Virus record (IMG/VR): IMGVR_UViG_3300042691_010785
Location: 1 to 34,549 of that record
Strand: one strand, 5' to 3'
Origin: a virus
DNA: 34,549 nucleotides
Shown here: positions 11,572-33,754 of the stretch, one piece after another
Position numbering within the stretch: the first letter of the stretch is position 1
How the letters are laid out: each line of letters begins with the position of its first letter
Notes under the pieces: model-generated
What the model was told of the DNA's origin: nothing
Database searches by the model: none
Seen by the model: only the letters and a program-made list of their open reading frames with translations
Program-made: the position numbers and the translations under genes

Positions 11572-12546
11572 ATGGCAGAACAGATGACCGCCCCGCTGGC
11601 TGACGCCGATGCGGGTACGCTTCCTATTGTTGACACTAATCCGAAAGCGACGGCTCCCGATGCCGCCCCGGACGCCGGGGCCGCGCCGAAAGCCGATGCA
11701 GGCGATACGCTCAAGACCATTGCGGATGACCCGGCAGACAAGCCGGTTGCAACGCCAGCCACATGGCCCGAAGATTGGCGCGAGCAGCTTGCTGGTGAGG
11801 ACAAGGCATTCCTTGCGGTCCTCAAGCGGTATACGTCTCCTGCCAACTACGCCAAAGCGGGCTTTGAGGCGCAGCAAAAAATCCGCTCCGGTGAGTTTAA
11901 GAAGCCGCTGAGCAAGGACGCCACGCCCGAGCAGCTTGCGGAATGGCGCAAGGAACAGGGTATTCCTGAAAAGCCCGATGGCTACGAGTTCGATCTTGGC
12001 GGCTTTGTCCCCGGAGAGAACGACAAGCCCATCCTTGATAACTTCAAGGAGTTTGCGCACGCCAACAACATGGCCCCGGCGCAGCTAAACGAAATTGCCA
12101 AGTGGTACTTCGACCAGCAGGAACAGGTAGTCGCGCAGCAAATCGAAGCCGATAGGGCTTACCGCGCCACGGCAGAGGAAGAATTGCGGCAGGAATACGG
12201 GCCGGAGTTTCGTTCCAACATCAACGCAGTCCGCAACTTCCTGAGCCAGACGGCGGGCGAGGAATTGACCGGCCTATTGTTTGGCGCACGTCTCGCTGAT
12301 GGAACGCTTCTAGGCAACAACGCGCACGCGCTGCGCTGGCTTGTTGGCGTTGCCCGTGAGCAAGTCCCCGGCGCGGGCCTTGTGCCTGCCGGAACGCCTG
12401 ATGTCGGCAAGAGCGTTCAGGGCCGCATTGGCGAATTGGAAGCTATGATGCAAAGCGAGCCTGACAAATACTATCGTCAGGGCTTCGACCAAGAGCTTTT
12501 GCGCCTCTATGACGCGCAAGAAAAGATGAAAGGCCGCGCAGCCTAA
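11572..12546 (+). CDS. Scaffold-like head assembly protein
   Basis: 324 aa, acidic and Ala/Pro/Asp-rich for the first 65 residues, then mostly helical: W-P-E-D-W-R-E-Q-L-A-G-E-D near 67-79 and a coiled-coil segment around 170-205 (Y-F-D-Q-Q-E-Q-V-V-A-Q-Q-I-E-A-D). Its C-terminus is charged and helical. W-x-x-D-W-R followed by L-x-R-Y-x-S-P-x-x-Y-A-K-A is common in phage scaffolding or head-maturation proteins directly upstream of the capsid gene, as here. It would organise prohead assembly and then leave. No protease motif was seen. Confidence 0.75.
   Translation: MAEQMTAPLADADAGTLPIVDTNPKATAPDAAPDAGAAPKADAGDTLKTIADDPADKPVATPATWPEDWREQLAGEDKAFLAVLKRYTSPANYAKAGFEAQQKIRSGEFKKPLSKDATPEQLAEWRKEQGIPEKPDGYEFDLGGFVPGENDKPILDNFKEFAHANNMAPAQLNEIAKWYFDQQEQVVAQQIEADRAYRATAEEELRQEYGPEFRSNINAVRNFLSQTAGEELTGLLFGARLADGTLLGNNAHALRWLVGVAREQVPGAGLVPAGTPDVGKSVQGRIGELEAMMQSEPDKYYRQGFDQELLRLYDAQEKMKGRAA
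12424..12439 (+). repeat. 16-base direct repeat, copy in scaffold gene
   Basis: CGCATTGGCGAATTGG occurs here in the scaffold coding sequence and again at 12564-12579 in the downstream leader, 140 bases apart. A 16-base identity by chance is unlikely at this distance. It may mark a small duplication or a deletion endpoint. Confidence 0.6.
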
Positions 12547-21743: not shown

Positions 21744-24700
21744 ATGGATGACTTGACCAACATCAACCAAGACGCGGACCTCATCGTACCAGGTGAATTT
21801 GTGTCTGGCGATGAAGCGGCAGCGTCTGATGTGTCGCCTGTCGTCATGCTTGGCGAAATGCAGGACCAACCGCCCGCGCCGCGTCTCAACATGACAAGGC
21901 CGGAGGGCGCAGAGTTTGGTGTCTCGTTCCGTGGCGCGCAACGCCAGAACACGATTGGCGGCGCGCTGTCTCAAGCGGCGGATATTTCGGTTGCTCGTTC
22001 GGCTCCTGCGCCAAGCCTTGATGATAGCGAGCGCACACGCCTTGAGGATTCGATCAATCAAACGGAAAGCCCCTTGCAGGCGTCCGTTGCTCGTCGCGCC
22101 TTGCAGCGTAAGGAACAGCGCGGAACGCTTAGCCCCTCTCGCCGTGAGCAGGCGGAAGAAAGCCTGATCGAGCAAATCGCCTATGAGATGTCCGGGGCCT
22201 TCAAGGCTAAGGAAGGCGTAGCCGGTACATTGCTCGGCTCGGTTGCGAGTTTTGAGAATGTCGGCGGCTTGTCTGGCCTTCTTGTGCGCCAGTTCCCGGC
22301 TTTGGCGTCCCGTCCGATTGTGACGCTGGCGGCTGATGCTGCGTTGACGAATACGCTAACTGACCCTGTTGTGCAGGGCATCCGTTTAGGTTCTGGCGCT
22401 CAGGAAGAATACGACCTGTTGCAGACGGCTCTTGCGCCGGTCGTGGGCGCTGCGGTCGGTGGCGCGCTTGGCGGCGCGGGCGTTGCTGTCTCGCGCGGTC
22501 TTGAACGCATGGAGATAAACCGCGCGCTTGATCCAAGGCTGACGCCGGAAGAACGCGCCGCAGATATGCGGATTGCAAGTGAACAGTTTGCCGTTGACCA
22601 GACGCTTGCGCCGCGTGCTGATGGGCAGTCTAGCCCTGTTGACGTTCGTGCGCCCGCCCCGATGGCTGGCGATGTGCAAGGGCGTTTTGTTGAGCCTACG
22701 TCCGCGTTTGCCGTGGATGTCAATGCGCGCGTAAACGATCCGCAGATGGCTCTGACATTTGGCAAGCCGGGCATCATGGCGCGCGGGCCTGATGCCGATA
22801 ACGTCAAAAAGCAATGGCGCACCGAGACGCCTTACGACGACATCAATGCTATGCTTGCCGCCGCGCCGGGAAACCAAAAGGCCATTGGGGATGCGGGTCG
22901 CCAGATTGCCGACGAACTAGGCGTCGAGTTTCGCGATCCGGGCGTCAAAGCAAACCGCGACCGCATCTTACAGAAGATGGGCGACAAAAAGCCCGGAACG
23001 CTGACCGACATCGTTCGCAGCGGTTTTGACATCAAGACGCCGGAACAGGCGGATGCCATCATTGACCGGTTGGCGCAACGGTTTGAGGTTATAGACGAAG
23101 GCTGGTTTACGACCGTTGGCGGCTATTTCGACCGCAAGTTATATGTACGCTTTCCCGATGGCATGATCGGGGAAGTACAGATGTGGCCGCCCGGCTTGTT
23201 CAAAGCCAAAGAGTTCGATGGCGGTCATAAGTTATATGAGGCAATGCGCGTCCTGCCCGAAGATGATTATGCAGGGCGGGCAAAACTGACGCGCGAAATG
23301 GAGGATTTCTACGCGCCGGTCTTGGCCGCGTTGCCCTCTGATTGGAGAAATGCAATCAGCGGCGGTGGGATCGCTGGCAGATCAAGCGCGCCAAACTTGG
23401 TCGAAAACGCCTCCGGCGTTAGCACGCGTGCCTCGTTGACCCAAGAAGGGTCTGGTGATTTCCAGACGCCATCGTCAAAGACCCGCGCCGTGCCTGCCAA
23501 CCAGACTAGCGGGTCACCGTCGAATGAACCAAATTTCCAAGCAACAGACATTGGGGCAACCTCCAATCGGAATATAGCACCGTCGCCAGCCGCAGACAAC
23601 ACTACAGCTAGTAGTCAACGCGGCGTATTGTCGCAGGCTAGCCTTATTGGGCAGCCCGTCGCCGCCATCCCCGCGCACAGAGTTTCAACCGCGAGCGGCA
23701 CAAGCATTGACGTCGCGCCTATCGTCATGGAAGCGGACGCGCTGCGCACATCGTCGGATGCAGGCTATGACGCCACATTGCAACCCCGTGATCGTGACCG
23801 CGCCGCATCTCAGGCCCAAATCCGCGACATCGCATCCCGCCTTGATCCAGAGCGCCTTGGGTTTTCCGCAGAGGCAGACCGTGGCGCTCCTATCGTTGGC
23901 AATGATGGCATGGTGGAAAGCGGCAACGGTCGCGTTCTTGCGATCCGTCGCGCATATGAGCAGGGCGGCGATGCGGCGGTTAAATATCGCGCTTGGCTGT
24001 CCTCTCAGGGCGTGGACCTGACGCAATACCGCGAGCCTATCCTCGTTCGCCAGCGCTTGACCGACCTTGCGCCAGAACAGCGGCAGGCGTTTACGGTTGA
24101 GGCTAATCAGGCGGCAACCCTCACGATGTCGGCGGGTGAACGGGCTATGTCCGACGCGCGGATGTTGAAGCCCGAGACGCTTGACCTCATCCGCAACGCG
24201 AACGATCTAGGCGCGCAAGGCAATAGGGATTTCACGCAAGCGTTTATCCGTGGCCTGCCTCAGTCAGAGCAAGGCATGATGGCGACGGCTGACGGGGCTT
24301 TGTCATCCGAGGGCCTGACCCGCATTCGCAACGCTGTTTTGGCGAAAGCCTATAGTGACGCCGACCTGATGGCCCGCATTGCGGAAGCCACAAGCGACGA
24401 CATCAAGAGCATTTCAAACGCGCTCATTGCGGCGGCCCCGGATTGGGCGCGCTTCCGTTCTGACGTTGACGCTGGCGTTGTCCGTCCTGATATGGACCTG
24501 ACGCCGTCGCTCATGGAAGCCGTAAAGCGCTCGGCAGACTTGCGCGCCAAGGGGACAACGCTAGACGCCTTCTTGCGCCAGCAGGATGCCTTTGACAGCG
24601 TACCCGCGCCCGTCGAGGCGTGGATGCGTATGTTTTACCAGCCTGACGGCAAACGCGCGGCTGGCGGTCCTGCAATGACCGAACGGCTGCGCGCCTTCGC

Positions 24701-27700
24701 ACAGGAAGCCCGCAAGGTCACAGCAGACGATGGATTAGGCTTTGACTTGCCGCCCGTTCGCGCGGAAGATGTGCAGGCACTAGCCGCAAGGAAAGGCGCA
24801 TCTGATGCAGCCCGAGAAACCACAGCAAACCTTTTCGAGTCCCGCCGCCCTAGCAATGGGCCGAGCAATGGCGCGGATGGGGCAGAAGCAGGGCGACCCG
24901 CAACTCAAGAAAGCGGGCGAGGACTTGAGCCGCAGAGCAATGGCGGCAATCGAGACGGGGCAGGAAACCTTGCCGCCCAAGACACAGAAATAGCGCCTCG
25001 CGTTGAACTTCGCGAACCTGACGTCAAAAAGGCCAGTGACGCCCATCGTGGCACAAGCCACACGCCCGAAAAGCGTGGACAGCAGGAAGTTGAAAGCTTC
25101 CGTTCCGATGTCGAGACATTCCGCACGACTCTAGCCAAGATTGCAGAGACGCCCGAACAAGTGGCGGTTGCAACTCGCCTTGGCGACGAATACCACAATG
25201 CGCTTTTAACCAAACTGGAAAGCATTTGGTCAACACGCTCCGGCGTGGCGAGCGCTATGATTGCTGGCCCTGCGAAGTTTAAGCAGACGACCAAAGCCAA
25301 CAACGCCTATGAGGCAAAGGTCAAAGACCTTGTTGAATGGCAAAAGAAGCAAATCAAGGACGCAGAAAAGACCGTTAAGGGTTTGCGTACAGAAGGCCAA
25401 CAGCTAGAGGAAAACTGGAAAAGCGCTCGCGCCGCGTTGGTCCACAATATCAACGTCATTCGCGGCATCGACTCTAACGATGGCCCGTGGAAGGGGTTTA
25501 ACCGCCCGACGTTTGTTAACTCGACGGCAAAGATCATTCGCACGCTTGACGAGCGCGGCCAGCCTCAGAATGTTAAGCGGGCGCTAGATTTTGTTCGTGA
25601 AGCGCAAGCGGCTATGGATAAGCCGATATTTACGGCCAAGCATCCGGCATGGAAGCTAGAGCCTGCTGACGAGATGCTGCCGGAAGCGCTTGCCCGGCGC
25701 GGCGGCAACGCTGTCACACAGAAGCCCCTAGCAAACCAACTAGAAGCGGGCCGCCCCAAGGCAGATCAAGGCACAAGCCCCGCTGCTGACGCTAAGGTGA
25801 CGCGCCTTGAGGACATCTCCCGCCAGCTTGTCGATTCATTTGAGACAATCGCCCGCACTGGTCGCGTCCAACCTGGCGCAAGGGGTATATACAAGACCCG
25901 TTCCGGCGTTGTCCGCGTTCGTTCTGTTTCCGACTTTGACACGCTCGCGCATGAAGTCGGCCATGCGCTCCATCTTGGCGGTGGGGCCAAGTCTGACTTT
26001 GACGCCATCGTGCGCGCAAACGTCAGTGAATTGCAGCAGTTCGGCGCTGGCGACGGCGCACAAGGGAACGCGGAAGGTTTTGCCAACCTCTTTCACGCCT
26101 ATGTGACCAATCTGCCTTTTGCGCAGATGAACTATCCCAACGCAACCGCCGCGCTTGATACCCTGATGCGGTCACGCTTTCCTGAGCAGATGAAAGCGGT
26201 CGAAGATGTCAGGCAGATGCTTGATGTTCTGCATCGTGCGCCTTCGCTTGAAGTCGTCCGTAGCGACCAGATTACGACGCAGCCGCCCAAGTTTGGCGAC
26301 CGCTTTCGCGAACTGGTTGCAGGCGACAAGGACCCGCAGGGCCGCGTTGTCTATTCGGCTTTGGATTCGCTCTACACGCAGTCTGTTGACAGCAATCATC
26401 CCGTTTATCGGGCGGTTGAGAACCTTGCCAACGTCGCAAAGGCCAACGGCAAGCCGGTTGATCTAAAGCCGTTGGATGACGCCTACATCCTTGCCCGCCG
26501 CCTCCCCGGCTCTCACGGGCGCGCTGACGCCATGTTGAAGTACGGGGTGGTCCCGGCAGGCAAGGTAAGCCCGGAAGGGCCTAGCCTGTCCTCTGGCATC
26601 GAAAAGGCGCTAGGCAAGAAATGGGACGCATCGCAGTTTGAAGACTTTGGCGCATACCTGACCGCTCGCCGTATGGTGGCTGAATATCAGCGCTTCTTTG
26701 CTGGTCAATTGGAGCGACCGCCCGGCAAGTTGTCTCTTTCGGATTACCAGAAAGCCGTTGCCGATTTTGAGGCCGCTAACCCGTCATTTAAGGCGGGTGC
26801 GGATGACATCTATGTATTCCAGAAAAACCACCTTAAGCGCCAGTTTGATAAGGGGCTAGTCACAAAGGAATATTACGAGACGGCCATTCAGCGCGCGGAC
26901 TACGTTCCGGCCATGCGCGATATGCGCAATTTTGAAGACACTGAGGCAAAAGTTCCGGGTGTTTCCGCTGGTGGGCAGGGGCTACTTTCCCGCACCATTA
27001 TGAAGCGCTTCCGGGGGTCTGACCGTCCGGTTATCAATCCGCTGGAATCCATCTTCAAGCGCGTGCATGACATTGAGTTTGTCATTGCCCGAAACGATTC
27101 AATCAATGCTCTTGCTCGCCTTGCTGATGAGGCTGGGCCGGGTGCAGGGTTCATCTACGAGGACATACCGAGCAACCAGCTAAAAGGCCAGCGCGTCGAT
27201 GTCATGGAAGCGCTCAAGAGTGCGGGCAAGACGGCGGGGCTTGATAGCGCCGACCTGACGCAGATGATGCTACAGGTCGAGGACGTTCTAGGCGATAGCA
27301 CGTGGGCGACCATCTTTCGGCAAGAGCCGATCAAGGAAGGCGCGGAGCCGATCATTTACCGTTGGGTGAATGGCGAACGTCGCGCGGGGCGCTTGGGTGA
27401 CGACCGCTTTGCGCGTGAATTGCACCATGCCCTAACGGCCATGAGCGATTATGAGAAGGACTTTCTGACAACCGTTCTGGCGATGGCGTCGGGTATCCTG
27501 CGAACCGGCATCACGAAAAGCCCTGACTTTATTCTGACGAACGCCATTCGTGACCAATCGACCGCGATGCTGACGGCGGGGCGGAAATACATCCCGTTTG
27601 TGTCGATGGCGAAGGGGCTAATCGAGGCCGTCAAGAAAACAGACGAGGCTATTGAGTTCGCCGGGCAGGGTGGCCTTGCTGGCGGGGCAATTGTAGAGGC

Positions 27701-29375
27701 AATCCAGTCAAGCGCCTTTGGTCGCAACGTCAAATCCTTGCAGGGCGGTAATTGGTTCGGTGAAGTGTTGAAGGCTTTCGAGATTTCGGAAACTGGAACG
27801 CGCCTCGGTCTGTACAAGAGCTACATCGAACAAGCCAAGGCTATGGGGTTCGATGACGAGAATGCCGCGCTGTATGCTGCCTTCAAAGCGGACGATTACA
27901 TTGATTTCCGGAAACATGGTGCGGCAATGGGTATTCCCCGCCGCATTTTCACGTTCCTCAACGCAGCCATCCAAGGCACAGACAGGGAAGTGCGCGCCGC
28001 TGGCGACTGGCCGGTGTTAGAGGCCAAGCGCGCCCGTGGCGAGACGTTGACAACCACAGAATTGGACCGTCTCAAGGATGCGCGTATCGGTGTTTTGAGG
28101 CTTGCCACGATGGGTGTTGTCCTTGGCTCTGGATTGGCGTTCCTTAACTCAGAAAATGAGAACGTTCAGAACGCCTCAAAATACTGGAAGGATACAAACT
28201 TCCTCTTTTCGGTGAACGGCACTGACTTCGCTATCCCAAAGGGGTTTGGCGTCGTGCAGTCAGTCGTCAATCTTTTTGAGCGTGGCGCAGAGTTCTCTAT
28301 GCGCGGCGATCCTACGATTGCGACGGATTGGCTAGAGGGGATGGCTAAGGCGTTTATGATGCCTGCATCTAACCCGGCGCTGACGCTTATGTACGATCTG
28401 CCCGCGAACTATGACCGCTTCCGTGACCGCAACATTGTCCCCTATTATATGCAGGGATGGGATGCGCCTGAGCAGTATTCCAAATACACATCAAGCCTTG
28501 CGCGCCAGCTTTCGGCGGCTGCGAACATGGTCGGCGTAAAGCTTTCTCCAATGAAGGTTGATTACACGATCCAGCAGCTTGGTGGCGGCATGGCCCGCGA
28601 TGCGCTGTTTGGGTGGGATGTGATGATGGGGACTGACCGTCCCGAGAAGCAAATTTATGACTACCCTGTGTTGCGCCGCTTTGTGAAGAACTTGGAACGT
28701 GGAAGCCGCGCGGCGGAAGACTTCAACAAGCTGGTGGGTGAAAAGACCGGCTCATATGAGCAGGCAGAAAATGCCTTCCGTGGAAAGATCAACAACGGTG
28801 AGCGTGCGGCGGCGAGTGAATATCTGCGCAATCTCAAGGAAGATGAACGCGCATGGGTAACATTGAACACATTGGGGTTTGACACTAAGGCCAAGCAGAT
28901 GCACCCGATGCTTAACGCCCGCGAGCGCGTGGCTTTGTCAAATGGCATGGTTCGCCAGTTGGTCAACGGAAACGTCATCAAGGAGGATGACCTAGACCGC
29001 CGCGACCTGACCCGCTCGCGCCGCGATGCTGAGCCGATCCCACTAACGCCGCGTGAGCGCGCTCTGTTGCAGGAGGAATTTCTGTCCTATTCCGTCGCCA
29101 CGGCGCGCAACGCAATGGTCACGGTCGGAGCAAAGGGAACAACCGGCTTAAAGCCGATGGATGCAACAAAGCTTGTTGAGCGCATCCGCATCATATCGCC
29201 TGCTGTTGCTGACGAGTTCACAGCCCGCATGGAGCGCAAGAACCTTCCATCTGCGGAGACGACCGCCCTCGCATGGCCTGAGATGAAGCGCAGGCTTCTT
29301 GTCGATGGTGAAAATGCGGACCTAGACGATCTAATCCCGGCTGACGTAAAGCGCCGCGCGCGCCGTCGCAACTAA
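21744..29375 (+). CDS. Giant polyvalent internal virion protein (RelA/SpoT-like, DdrB/ParB-like, zincin, LPD38-like)
   Basis: 2543 aa. Residues about 145-260: Ala/Gly-rich, probably membrane-active. About 355-545: RelA/SpoT-like pattern (D422, R425, G460-Y461, E477-V-Q479, H495, Y498). About 548-640: Ser/Asn/Pro linker. About 655-980: DdrB/ParB-like domain with Q-P-R-D-R-D-R (680-686) and E-S-G-N-G-R (725-730). About 1110-1300: helical region with M-I-A-G-P-A-K-F (1172-1179). Zincin H1403-E-V-G-H1407 with candidate third ligand E1444. About 1900-2300: LPD38-like core with N1933-A-I-R-D, F-L-N-A-A-I-Q-G (N2073) and I-P-K-G (2164-2167). Chains of this kind were described as polyvalent proteins of phages and conjugative elements, injected with DNA to counter host defences. 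That role is inferred here from domains and position. Confidence 0.85.
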   Translation: MDDLTNINQDADLIVPGEFVSGDEAAASDVSPVVMLGEMQDQPPAPRLNMTRPEGAEFGVSFRGAQRQNTIGGALSQAADISVARSAPAPSLDDSERTRLEDSINQTESPLQASVARRALQRKEQRGTLSPSRREQAEESLIEQIAYEMSGAFKAKEGVAGTLLGSVASFENVGGLSGLLVRQFPALASRPIVTLAADAALTNTLTDPVVQGIRLGSGAQEEYDLLQTALAPVVGAAVGGALGGAGVAVSRGLERMEINRALDPRLTPEERAADMRIASEQFAVDQTLAPRADGQSSPVDVRAPAPMAGDVQGRFVEPTSAFAVDVNARVNDPQMALTFGKPGIMARGPDADNVKKQWRTETPYDDINAMLAAAPGNQKAIGDAGRQIADELGVEFRDPGVKANRDRILQKMGDKKPGTLTDIVRSGFDIKTPEQADAIIDRLAQRFEVIDEGWFTTVGGYFDRKLYVRFPDGMIGEVQMWPPGLFKAKEFDGGHKLYEAMRVLPEDDYAGRAKLTREMEDFYAPVLAALPSDWRNAISGGGIAGRSSAPNLVENASGVSTRASLTQEGSGDFQTPSSKTRAVPANQTSGSPSNEPNFQATDIGATSNRNIAPSPAADNTTASSQRGVLSQASLIGQPVAAIPAHRVSTASGTSIDVAPIVMEADALRTSSDAGYDATLQPRDRDRAASQAQIRDIASRLDPERLGFSAEADRGAPIVGNDGMVESGNGRVLAIRRAYEQGGDAAVKYRAWLSSQGVDLTQYREPILVRQRLTDLAPEQRQAFTVEANQAATLTMSAGERAMSDARMLKPETLDLIRNANDLGAQGNRDFTQAFIRGLPQSEQGMMATADGALSSEGLTRIRNAVLAKAYSDADLMARIAEATSDDIKSISNALIAAAPDWARFRSDVDAGVVRPDMDLTPSLMEAVKRSADLRAKGTTLDAFLRQQDAFDSVPAPVEAWMRMFYQPDGKRAAGGPAMTERLRAFAQEARKVTADDGLGFDLPPVRAEDVQALAARKGASDAARETTANLFESRRPSNGPSNGADGAEAGRPATQESGRGLEPQSNGGNRDGAGNLAAQDTEIAPRVELREPDVKKASDAHRGTSHTPEKRGQQEVESFRSDVETFRTTLAKIAETPEQVAVATRLGDEYHNALLTKLESIWSTRSGVASAMIAGPAKFKQTTKANNAYEAKVKDLVEWQKKQIKDAEKTVKGLRTEGQQLEENWKSARAALVHNINVIRGIDSNDGPWKGFNRPTFVNSTAKIIRTLDERGQPQNVKRALDFVREAQAAMDKPIFTAKHPAWKLEPADEMLPEALARRGGNAVTQKPLANQLEAGRPKADQGTSPAADAKVTRLEDISRQLVDSFETIARTGRVQPGARGIYKTRSGVVRVRSVSDFDTLAHEVGHALHLGGGAKSDFDAIVRANVSELQQFGAGDGAQGNAEGFANLFHAYVTNLPFAQMNYPNATAALDTLMRSRFPEQMKAVEDVRQMLDVLHRAPSLEVVRSDQITTQPPKFGDRFRELVAGDKDPQGRVVYSALDSLYTQSVDSNHPVYRAVENLANVAKANGKPVDLKPLDDAYILARRLPGSHGRADAMLKYGVVPAGKVSPEGPSLSSGIEKALGKKWDASQFEDFGAYLTARRMVAEYQRFFAGQLERPPGKLSLSDYQKAVADFEAANPSFKAGADDIYVFQKNHLKRQFDKGLVTKEYYETAIQRADYVPAMRDMRNFEDTEAKVPGVSAGGQGLLSRTIMKRFRGSDRPVINPLESIFKRVHDIEFVIARNDSINALARLADEAGPGAGFIYEDIPSNQLKGQRVDVMEALKSAGKTAGLDSADLTQMMLQVEDVLGDSTWATIFRQEPIKEGAEPIIYRWVNGERRAGRLGDDRFARELHHALTAMSDYEKDFLTTVLAMASGILRTGITKSPDFILTNAIRDQSTAMLTAGRKYIPFVSMAKGLIEAVKKTDEAIEFAGQGGLAGGAIVEAIQSSAFGRNVKSLQGGNWFGEVLKAFEISETGTRLGLYKSYIEQAKAMGFDDENAALYAAFKADDYIDFRKHGAAMGIPRRIFTFLNAAIQGTDREVRAAGDWPVLEAKRARGETLTTTELDRLKDARIGVLRLATMGVVLGSGLAFLNSENENVQNASKYWKDTNFLFSVNGTDFAIPKGFGVVQSVVNLFERGAEFSMRGDPTIATDWLEGMAKAFMMPASNPALTLMYDLPANYDRFRDRNIVPYYMQGWDAPEQYSKYTSSLARQLSAAANMVGVKLSPMKVDYTIQQLGGGMARDALFGWDVMMGTDRPEKQIYDYPVLRRFVKNLERGSRAAEDFNKLVGEKTGSYEQAENAFRGKINNGERAAASEYLRNLKEDERAWVTLNTLGFDTKAKQMHPMLNARERVALSNGMVRQLVNGNVIKEDDLDRRDLTRSRRDAEPIPLTPRERALLQEEFLSYSVATARNAMVTVGAKGTTGLKPMDATKLVERIRIISPAVADEFTARMERKNLPSAETTALAWPEMKRRLLVDGENADLDDLIPADVKRRARRRN

Positions 29376-32079: not shown

Positions 32080-33261
32080 ATGTCTGTACTCTTCACAAAT
32101 GGTGGCGCTACCGGGTCAAACCCGCAACTTGCAAAAGCGACAACCACAGCCAAGACGTTCAAGGACACGACGAGCGCAGACTTTGCCACGATTACCGGGC
32201 TTGTCTCTGATAACGTGTTTGCGAACGCCGACGCAGTTATTGATGCGACTTGCGACACAACATACGGCGCTGACCTGACAGGTTCAACCAAATGGATCGG
32301 CTCGGCGCTTGGTCACGATGGCTGTATTTATGCCGCGCCCCAAACTGCAACCGACATTCTTAAAATCAATCCATTGAGCGGGAAGGCAACACGTTCCGCA
32401 ATGGGCGCAACGCTATCCGGCTCTAATAAATATGCTGGCATGGTCGCGGGGCATAAAAACAAGCTTTATGGCATACCGTTGAGCGCAACAACAATCTTGC
32501 AAATTGATGTTGAAGCGCAGACCGCCAACGATTCGTCTGCAATGGGCGCAACCATTGTTGGCGCAAGCAATTGGTATGGTGGCGTTTGTGCGTCAAATGG
32601 TAAAATTTACTGCGTCCCGCACAACTCATCAACCTTTCTGATTATTGACACCCTAGCTGAAACCGCAACCACATCAACGCTTGGGTTCTCCTTCCCGGCT
32701 GTAAATGGTAAATGGCGCGGCGGCGTGCTTGGCAAGGATGGCAAAATTTATTGTTGTCCTTCAACGCGCCCAACAATTCTGGTTATTGATCCTGTCGCTG
32801 GTTCGGCGTCCGAACAGACATTCGGGGCTACTATATCTGCGGGTAATTACAACGGCTGCGTTGGCGGGCCTGATGGGAAGATTTATTTTATTCCCGCAAC
32901 GGCGACAAGCGTTCTTGTCCTTGATGTTGATGCAGGCACTACATCAACGCTTGGCGCGTCCATCAGCAATTACAGCGGCGGCGTGATGGGGCCAGACGGG
33001 AAAATATACTGCGCTACAACTTCCGCCTCTCAATACACATTCTTAATTATAGACACAGCAGCCGTGACAGCTACTAAATCTGACCTGGGCGAGGCGGCTG
33101 TGCCTGTCGTCAACGCTACTGGCTCGCTAACTATGGCGCGAGCGGGGGACAAGCTGTTTTCAATACCACAATCAAACACGAAGCTAGCTGTGATTGGCGG
33201 GTTTGAGAAGGCCCTGCCATTTGCTGCCGAACACAGCGCGTTCTTTGCGCCGTCTTTCTAA
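32080..33261 (+). CDS. Seven-bladed beta-propeller virion protein
   Basis: 393 aa, start after CGGAGA. From residue 70, seven units of 41-50 residues repeat a core such as G-G-V-x-G-x-D-G-K-I-Y-x-x-P-x-x-x-x-x-x-L-x-I-D, each followed by T-x-x-x-x-G-A-T/S. The last unit is degenerate and ends the chain with hydrophobic F-F-A-P-S-F. The first 65 residues form a separate beta-rich segment. This predicts a seven-bladed propeller, likely a host-surface binding or fibre-associated protein, lying directly after the tailspike and before lysis genes. No enzyme motif is visible. Other propellers of the YVTN/NHL kind look alike, so no finer family is claimed. Confidence 0.75.
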   Translation: MSVLFTNGGATGSNPQLAKATTTAKTFKDTTSADFATITGLVSDNVFANADAVIDATCDTTYGADLTGSTKWIGSALGHDGCIYAAPQTATDILKINPLSGKATRSAMGATLSGSNKYAGMVAGHKNKLYGIPLSATTILQIDVEAQTANDSSAMGATIVGASNWYGGVCASNGKIYCVPHNSSTFLIIDTLAETATTSTLGFSFPAVNGKWRGGVLGKDGKIYCCPSTRPTILVIDPVAGSASEQTFGATISAGNYNGCVGGPDGKIYFIPATATSVLVLDVDAGTTSTLGASISNYSGGVMGPDGKIYCATTSASQYTFLIIDTAAVTATKSDLGEAAVPVVNATGSLTMARAGDKLFSIPQSNTKLAVIGGFEKALPFAAEHSAFFAPSF

Positions 33262-33376: not shown

Positions 33377-33754
33377 GTGAAACTAAACGACCGCTCCGAG
33401 CGGGCGCTTAATGGCGTTCATCCTGATTTAGTGAAAGTCGTTCGTCGCGCTGCTGCAATCACAAAATCGGACTTCATTGTGACCGAAGGCTTGCGCACGG
33501 TTGCTAGGCAAAAGCAGCTTTTAGCGGCTGGCGCGTCAAAAACAATGAAAAGCCGCCACATCACGGGCCATGCAGTTGATGTTGCAATGATGGTCGGCGG
33601 GAAAGTCCGTTGGGATTGGCCGCTTTATGCGGCGTTTTCAAAGACAATGAAGCAAGCCGCAAAAGACGTTGGCGTTTCAATTGAGTGGGGCGGGGATTGG
33701 AAGTCTTTTAAGGATGGCCCGCACTATCAACTTCCTTGGAGCAAGTACCCATGA
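33377..33754 (+). CDS. Endolysin, M15-type L-Ala-D-Glu/D-Ala-D-Ala peptidase
   Basis: 125 aa, GTG start six bases after AGGGG. The zinc site of the VanY/M15 family is complete: S-R-H61-I-T-G-H-A-V-D68 gives two ligands and D-G-P-H116-Y the third, with D113 as candidate catalytic base, three residues before the last ligand as in phage T5 endolysin. E-G-L-R-T (37-41) is the conserved substrate loop. The enzyme cuts the peptide of peptidoglycan. There is no signal peptide, so it needs a holin. Its stop overlaps the next ATG. Confidence 0.88.
   Translation: MKLNDRSERALNGVHPDLVKVVRRAAAITKSDFIVTEGLRTVARQKQLLAAGASKTMKSRHITGHAVDVAMMVGGKVRWDWPLYAAFSKTMKQAAKDVGVSIEWGGDWKSFKDGPHYQLPWSKYP

Follow-up and report, generated by a model that had tools for sequence, protein, structure and literature searches.

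The 34,549-base viral contig analyzed here (IMG/VR record IMGVR_UViG_3300042691_010785, referred to as the window) carries the gene set of a podovirus, including genes for a terminase, a head-tail connector, a major capsid protein, the tail protein phrog_376, a 793-residue protein, a 2543-residue protein and a tail fibre. The closest connectors to that of the window are those of HTVC010P-type pelagiphages, at only 25-28% identity, which does not identify the host. The present study concerns the 2543-residue protein, and in particular a segment in its N-terminal part in which an earlier note on the sequence had recognized, from the order of motifs, a RelA/SpoT-like alarmone synthetase (SYNTH) domain. 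The open reading frame (ORF) for this protein lies in a tail-gene context and combines SYNTH, ddrB-ParB and LPD38 domains in one product, as is typical of polyvalent proteins. The coordinates of all features are listed in Table 1.

As a single sequence, the domain gave zero matches in searches of Pfam and, with phmmer, of the PDB, and tblastn against named phages likewise gave zero matches. Because the domain alone has no Pfam or PDB match, the earlier note had seen what the usual single-sequence searches miss. We therefore describe its homology with profiles built with 2-25 relatives. Two viral contigs encode relatives with 50% and 33% identity, and a profile of these three sequences matched Tas1, also known as Apk1, the (p)ppApp synthetase of the P. 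aeruginosa type VI secretion system (T6SS; PDB 6ox6), with an E-value of 2e-12. A 19-sequence profile matched Tas1 (1e-25), the exported alarmone synthetase SaEAS (7e-12), Rel (3e-4) and small alarmone synthetases (SAS; 4e-4), with the Rel and SAS matches ranging from 3e-4 to 3e-2. Since the 19-sequence profile takes in more canonical relatives, a profile of the window's own clade alone was also built, and this matched Tas1 over the whole domain (5e-20) and SaEAS (2e-4). Pfam RelA_SpoT was matched at E <= 1 by 11 of the 19 relatives (best 1e-7), and the named motif residues are invariant across the 19-sequence alignment, in which identity falls to 18%. Weak Pfam matches such as Bet_v_1 were rejected as chance, as none recurred consistently in later profiles. 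The window domain alone fails the curated cut-off of Pfam PF04607, which a sister domain of the window's own clade, in locus L052, clears (27.3 versus 27); this failure reflects limited sensitivity of the Pfam model and does not touch any defining catalytic feature.

The predicted structure agrees with the profiles. The AlphaFold model of residues 356-550, computed from an alignment of 26 sequences that comprised the window and viral contigs only, has a mean predicted local distance difference test score of 93.5 and a predicted template modelling (TM) score of 0.88. The 50 Foldseek matches listed for the PDB are all SYNTH domains with E <= 1e-3, in the order Tas1 (E 1e-8, TM 0.67), SaEAS, and then SAS1, RelP, Rel and CapRel, and no unrelated fold was matched. 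Among predicted viral proteins, the best Foldseek matches were large proteins of uncultured phages, some of them labelled RelA/SpoT, DdrB-like or ART-PolyVal. Judged by profiles and model together, residues ~356-542 are a true SYNTH fold of the RelA/SpoT superfamily that most resembles the branch of Apk1/Tas1 and the exported alarmone synthetases. The idea that the motif order arose by chance or on an unrelated fold could draw on the empty single-sequence searches, but it is contradicted by the profile matches, the model, the Foldseek matches and the sister domain above the Pfam cut-off, and can practically be dismissed. The region proposed in the earlier note was right, except that its start was placed about 25 residues too far downstream.

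When the sequence was re-read, each of the motifs named before was located at its residue: VKANRDRILQKM at 401, LTDIVRSGF at 420, GGYFD at 459, GEVQ at 476 and GGHKLYE at 493. The SYNTH catalytic set is present, consisting of the basic donor segment with K402 and K411, D422, the stacking Y461, E477 and Q479, and we conclude from the alignment that the catalytic residues are intact. D422 aligns with D121 of SaEAS, of which the D121A variant is inactive (PMC12691689). The synthetase pocket residues are also retained in close homologues. K402, D422, R425, E477, Q479 and K489 do not vary in the 50 rows of the clade described below; Y461, D463 and K465 do not vary either, although their conservation is partly circular because the clade was gathered and its rows counted with the GYFDRK motif. 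Of the distal His/Tyr pair that had been proposed, Y498 holds in nearly every row, whereas H495 is not a fixed residue.

A second scan yielded 48 viral loci and one contig of a bacterial metagenome-assembled genome (MAG) that share the motifs DEG[WF] and GY[FM]D[RK]K, here called the YFDRK clade. A maximum-likelihood tree unites the YFDRK rows in a single, well-supported clade (99/99), whose stem measures 1.25 changes per column and which excludes RelV-like enzymes, Apk1, Apk2 and another group of phage polyvalent proteins. The sister branch of the clade among characterised enzymes is not resolved by this tree, in which the Apk1 and Apk2 rows are long. When 398 sampled genomes of the MAG's phylum were searched with the same profile, the MAG contig was recovered; the remaining matches inspected consisted largely of one Tas1-like protein and of RelV-like proteins that lack the signature. 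In one clade member (L045:10001-10429) the frame leaves the family right after ExQ...K, perhaps as a broken or frameshifted copy.

At the positions linked to acceptor recognition the window domain differs from the enzymes with which it was compared. Canonical enzymes have SxH followed by ExQxR, and Apk2 has GxN followed by YH (PMC12226406). The (p)ppGpp acceptor motifs of RelA/SpoT homologues (RSH) and SAS (syn3 SxH, syn4 ExQxR) are absent from the window domain, as are the (p)ppApp motifs of Apk1 and Apk2 (syn3 GxN, syn4 N or H); GYFDRK and EVQMW, i.e. DRK and W, stand in their place. In the clade DRK is followed by ExQxW (38/50 rows) or by Y instead of W (9/50). The position after ExQ is R in RSH, N in Apk1 and H in Apk2, SaEAS and RelV, and the syn3 and syn4 motifs read GVN and EIQVN in Tas1 and DLN and EVQLH in RelV-like proteins. 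Because the altered positions are those linked to acceptor recognition, catalysis looks kept and acceptor choice looks changed.

Fusion partners point to the route by which the domain may reach the cell. In L029 the partners of the sister domain are a phrog_342 internal virion protein and DdrB-ParB; in L038 and L048 the partner is phrog_21 portal sequence, and in L025 it is head-morphogenesis sequence. A single ORF of 1505 residues joins a portal, the anti-CBASS protein Acb1, MuF and a YFDRK SYNTH domain (L007:751-5265), and an 858-residue ORF joins ART-PolyVal and further ADP-ribosyl matches of the PARP, DUF3990 and KptA types to a SYNTH domain at its end (L047:6101-8674). We also noted an ORF of 4547 residues, MuF-like by eye, with two SYNTH copies (L003:2304-15944); again by eye, it has repeated acetyltransferase-like and zeta-toxin-like P-loop segments. 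The common theme of the fusion partners is that they are proteins entering with the DNA, which supports such an entry for the SYNTH domains, and DdrB of phage P1 undergoes processing and is packaged into the head (PMC5512222). The 2543-residue protein is thus probably packed in the virion and enters with the DNA; indirect support for the earlier note's proposal to this effect comes from gene order, from the ddrB-ParB and LPD38 domains and from fusion partners that are internal virion, portal or head proteins.

Table 1. Features of the 2543-residue protein and its SYNTH domain in the window.
Feature	Coordinates	Strand	Basis or remark
Polyvalent virion-type protein, 2543 aa	21744..29375	+	ORF; Pfam ddrB-ParB and LPD38; between tail genes and tail-fibre gene
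Possible membrane-active Gly/Ala-rich hydrophobic segment, residues 228-247	22425..22484	+	Hydropathy
RelA/SpoT-like SYNTH domain, residues ~356-542	22809..23369	+	Profiles against Tas1/SaEAS/Rel; AlphaFold; Foldseek
Basic donor-side segment K402...K411 (syn1-like)	22947..22976	+	K402 in 50/50, K411 in 46/50 clade members
D422-x-x-R425 (syn2-like)	23007..23018	+	Invariant; D422 aligned to SaEAS D121
DEGW (451-454) and GYFDRK (460-465), clade signature, syn3-like acceptor motif	23094..23138	+	K465 replaces H/N of RSH/Apk
E477-V-Q479-M-W481 (syn4-like), E477 predicted catalytic	23172..23186	+	E and Q in 50/50; W in 38/50
Distal pocket K489, H495, Y498	23208..23237	+	K in 50/50, H in 36/50, Y in 49/50
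DdrB-like ParB domain (predicted DNase), residues 652-771	23697..24056	+	Pfam PF18763, E 2e-33
HEVGH zincin-like motif, residues 1403-1407, possible self-processing peptidase	25950..25964	+	Motif only
LPD38 domain, residues 2141-2310	28164..28673	+	Pfam PF18857, E 6e-25

The hydropathy of the Gly/Ala-rich segment peaks at 1.64 across residues 229-247. A Pfam scan of the 2543-residue protein gave no match at the HEVGH motif, downstream of which AEGFANL was seen. After the tail-fibre gene, the window encodes a DUF5074 protein (32080-33261) and an M15 peptidase (33377-33754), the latter likely a lysis gene.

Based on these data, we consider it probable that the segment is a folded SYNTH domain in a DdrB-type polyvalent podovirus protein and acts as a virion-delivered 3'-pyrophosphokinase. 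The protein would be packed in the virion, would perhaps be cut by its own zincin-like part, and would enter the cell with the DNA. K402 and K411 would hold the ATP donor, D422 and E477 would bind magnesium, and an acceptor, stacked on Y461, would receive pyrophosphate from ATP at its 3'-OH, so that a host nucleotide or tRNA pool may be drained or poisoned early in infection. Several points weigh against this reading. An active toxin made late in the producing cell would require control. The acceptor-choice positions (FDRK and W481) are unlike those of every characterised enzyme compared, and motif swaps at acceptor positions did not turn Apk2 into a ppGpp synthetase (PMC12226406). Moreover, RelV-like proteins, reported to be GTP-specific, have D at Y+2 as the window clade does. 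This shared residue weakens the guess of ATP as the acceptor, and the acceptor is not predicted confidently because motif swapping left the specificity of Apk2 unchanged. Reading a preference for ATP or GTP off the syn motifs was discarded for the same reason and because RelV-like proteins (reportedly GTP-specific), SaEAS (promiscuous) and Apk enzymes overlap there. ATP/ADP, giving (p)ppApp, may be the best single guess, though weakly so, followed by tRNA or another acceptor and then by GTP/GDP as the least likely of the three.

Other roles for a domain with this fold have to be weighed against a virion-delivered pyrophosphokinase acting on nucleotides. An enzyme that, like FaRel2 and CapRel, pyrophosphorylates the 3'-CCA of host tRNA and so blocks translation at entry would account for the replacement of the base-choice H/N at Y+4 by K and of R/N/H after ExQ by W; toxSAS of such a type exist (PMC11559606) and CapRel is among the Foldseek matches listed. 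In both the profiles and the fold search, however, the nucleotide-specific enzymes Tas1 and SaEAS rank well above CapRel, and we regard a tRNA target of this kind as unlikely. The unusual acceptor-side motif and the loss of H495 in part of the clade would also suit a catalytically dead SYNTH-fold module with a structural or decoy role, for example by binding toxSAS or alarmones of the host. An inactive module should have let some of its active-site residues go, but Asp, Glu, Gln, Arg, Tyr and three Lys there persist in every member, or nearly so, as the remaining sequence diverges to ~31% identity, which makes this alternative quite improbable.

It is also conceivable that the domain is a polymorphic toxin of a temperate phage with dedicated immunity, as is Apk2 with IapK and Aph1. 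Apk2 is a phage MuF-fused relative, and clade members are likewise found on MuF or head proteins. Against this, the window domain is internal rather than C-terminal, an integrase was found in only 1 of 20 records, and a search of the window for an HD_4 hydrolase found none, IapK-type proteins being too divergent to exclude. In the other YFDRK-clade records checked, which may be fragments, an HD_4 match was present in one only (L025), on the opposite strand, and a second HD_4 match came from a record belonging to the other phage group. We consider a dedicated toxin-immunity system very unlikely here. The scarcity of hydrolases and integrases fits virulent phages that do not need lasting immunity, with the proviso that the records may be incomplete. 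The HD_4 alarmone-hydrolase-like gene of L025 (~11925-12480, minus strand; L089) lies ~1.4 kb from a SYNTH gene. In Streptococcus phage IPP46 a hydrolase adjoins the Apk2 system, and in Bordetella phage PHB04 (L020) the SYNTH domain is in the ORF after the portal, and behind it come a gene with the annotation alarmone synthetase/hydrolase and a Ser/Thr phosphatase.

Among known systems, the nearest solved relative of the window domain is Tas1, a bactericidal (p)ppApp synthetase that is the best match across the whole domain in both profiles and fold. The two share the order K, D-x-x-R, Y, E-x-Q, K, H, Y, but Tas1 has GYSGVN and EIQVN where the window has GYFDRK and EVQMW, and it carries a PAAR N-terminus, is delivered by the T6SS and comes with its own immunity protein. 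Apk2, a MuF-linked (p)ppApp synthetase of temperate phages, is similar in that its SYNTH domain is encoded by a phage and attached to a head protein of the virion; it differs in its GxN/YH motifs as opposed to DRK/W, in its C-terminal as opposed to internal position, and in its adjoining IapK and Aph1, whereas a hydrolase gene was not found in the window. The exported alarmone synthetases (SaEAS and VpEAS/RelV-like) belong to the same SYNTH branch, and RelV-like proteins also have GYxD, but these are small Sec-exported proteins, with GYRDLN/EVQLH in the RelV type, and the RelV-like proteins form a separate clade in the tree. P1 DdrB shares the DdrB-ParB domain and the zincin-like motif with the window protein, in which an alarmone-synthetase-like domain lies upstream of the ParB domain.

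It should be noted that RelA/SpoT domains in polyvalent proteins are not a new kind, since the accessible text of Iyer et al. 2017 (PMC5512222) already reports them, with DdrB-ParB, LPD38, a peptidase-like motif and the same proposed role; that text holds no description of the YFDRK clade or of its altered acceptor motifs. What is new here is a distinct, unnamed and widespread phage clade, together with its altered acceptor motifs and its recurrent fusion to proteins of the virion with no hydrolase alongside. A bolder reading, which is possible but rather doubtful, is that the clade constitutes a separate class of virion-delivered pyrophosphokinases, with a remodelled pocket and an acceptor outside those of known alarmone and toxSAS enzymes (a specific tRNA, some other nucleotide or cofactor, or a second messenger in defence), used for single-shot takeover or counter-defence without immunity genes.

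So far, the routes on record by which alarmone synthetases are secreted comprise Sec, T7SS, T3SS, T6SS, extracellular contractile injection systems and phage MuF (PMC12691689). The YFDRK clade extends this list with polyvalent, portal and internal virion proteins, in phages that appear to have no immunity hydrolase. With about 50 loci, the clade forms a clear and cheap test set. If the domains are active, phages carrying them would act on nucleotide pools, by poisoning or reprogramming them, during the first minutes of infection, which would bear directly on host shutdown by phages and on their interplay with toxSAS and nucleotide-based defences.
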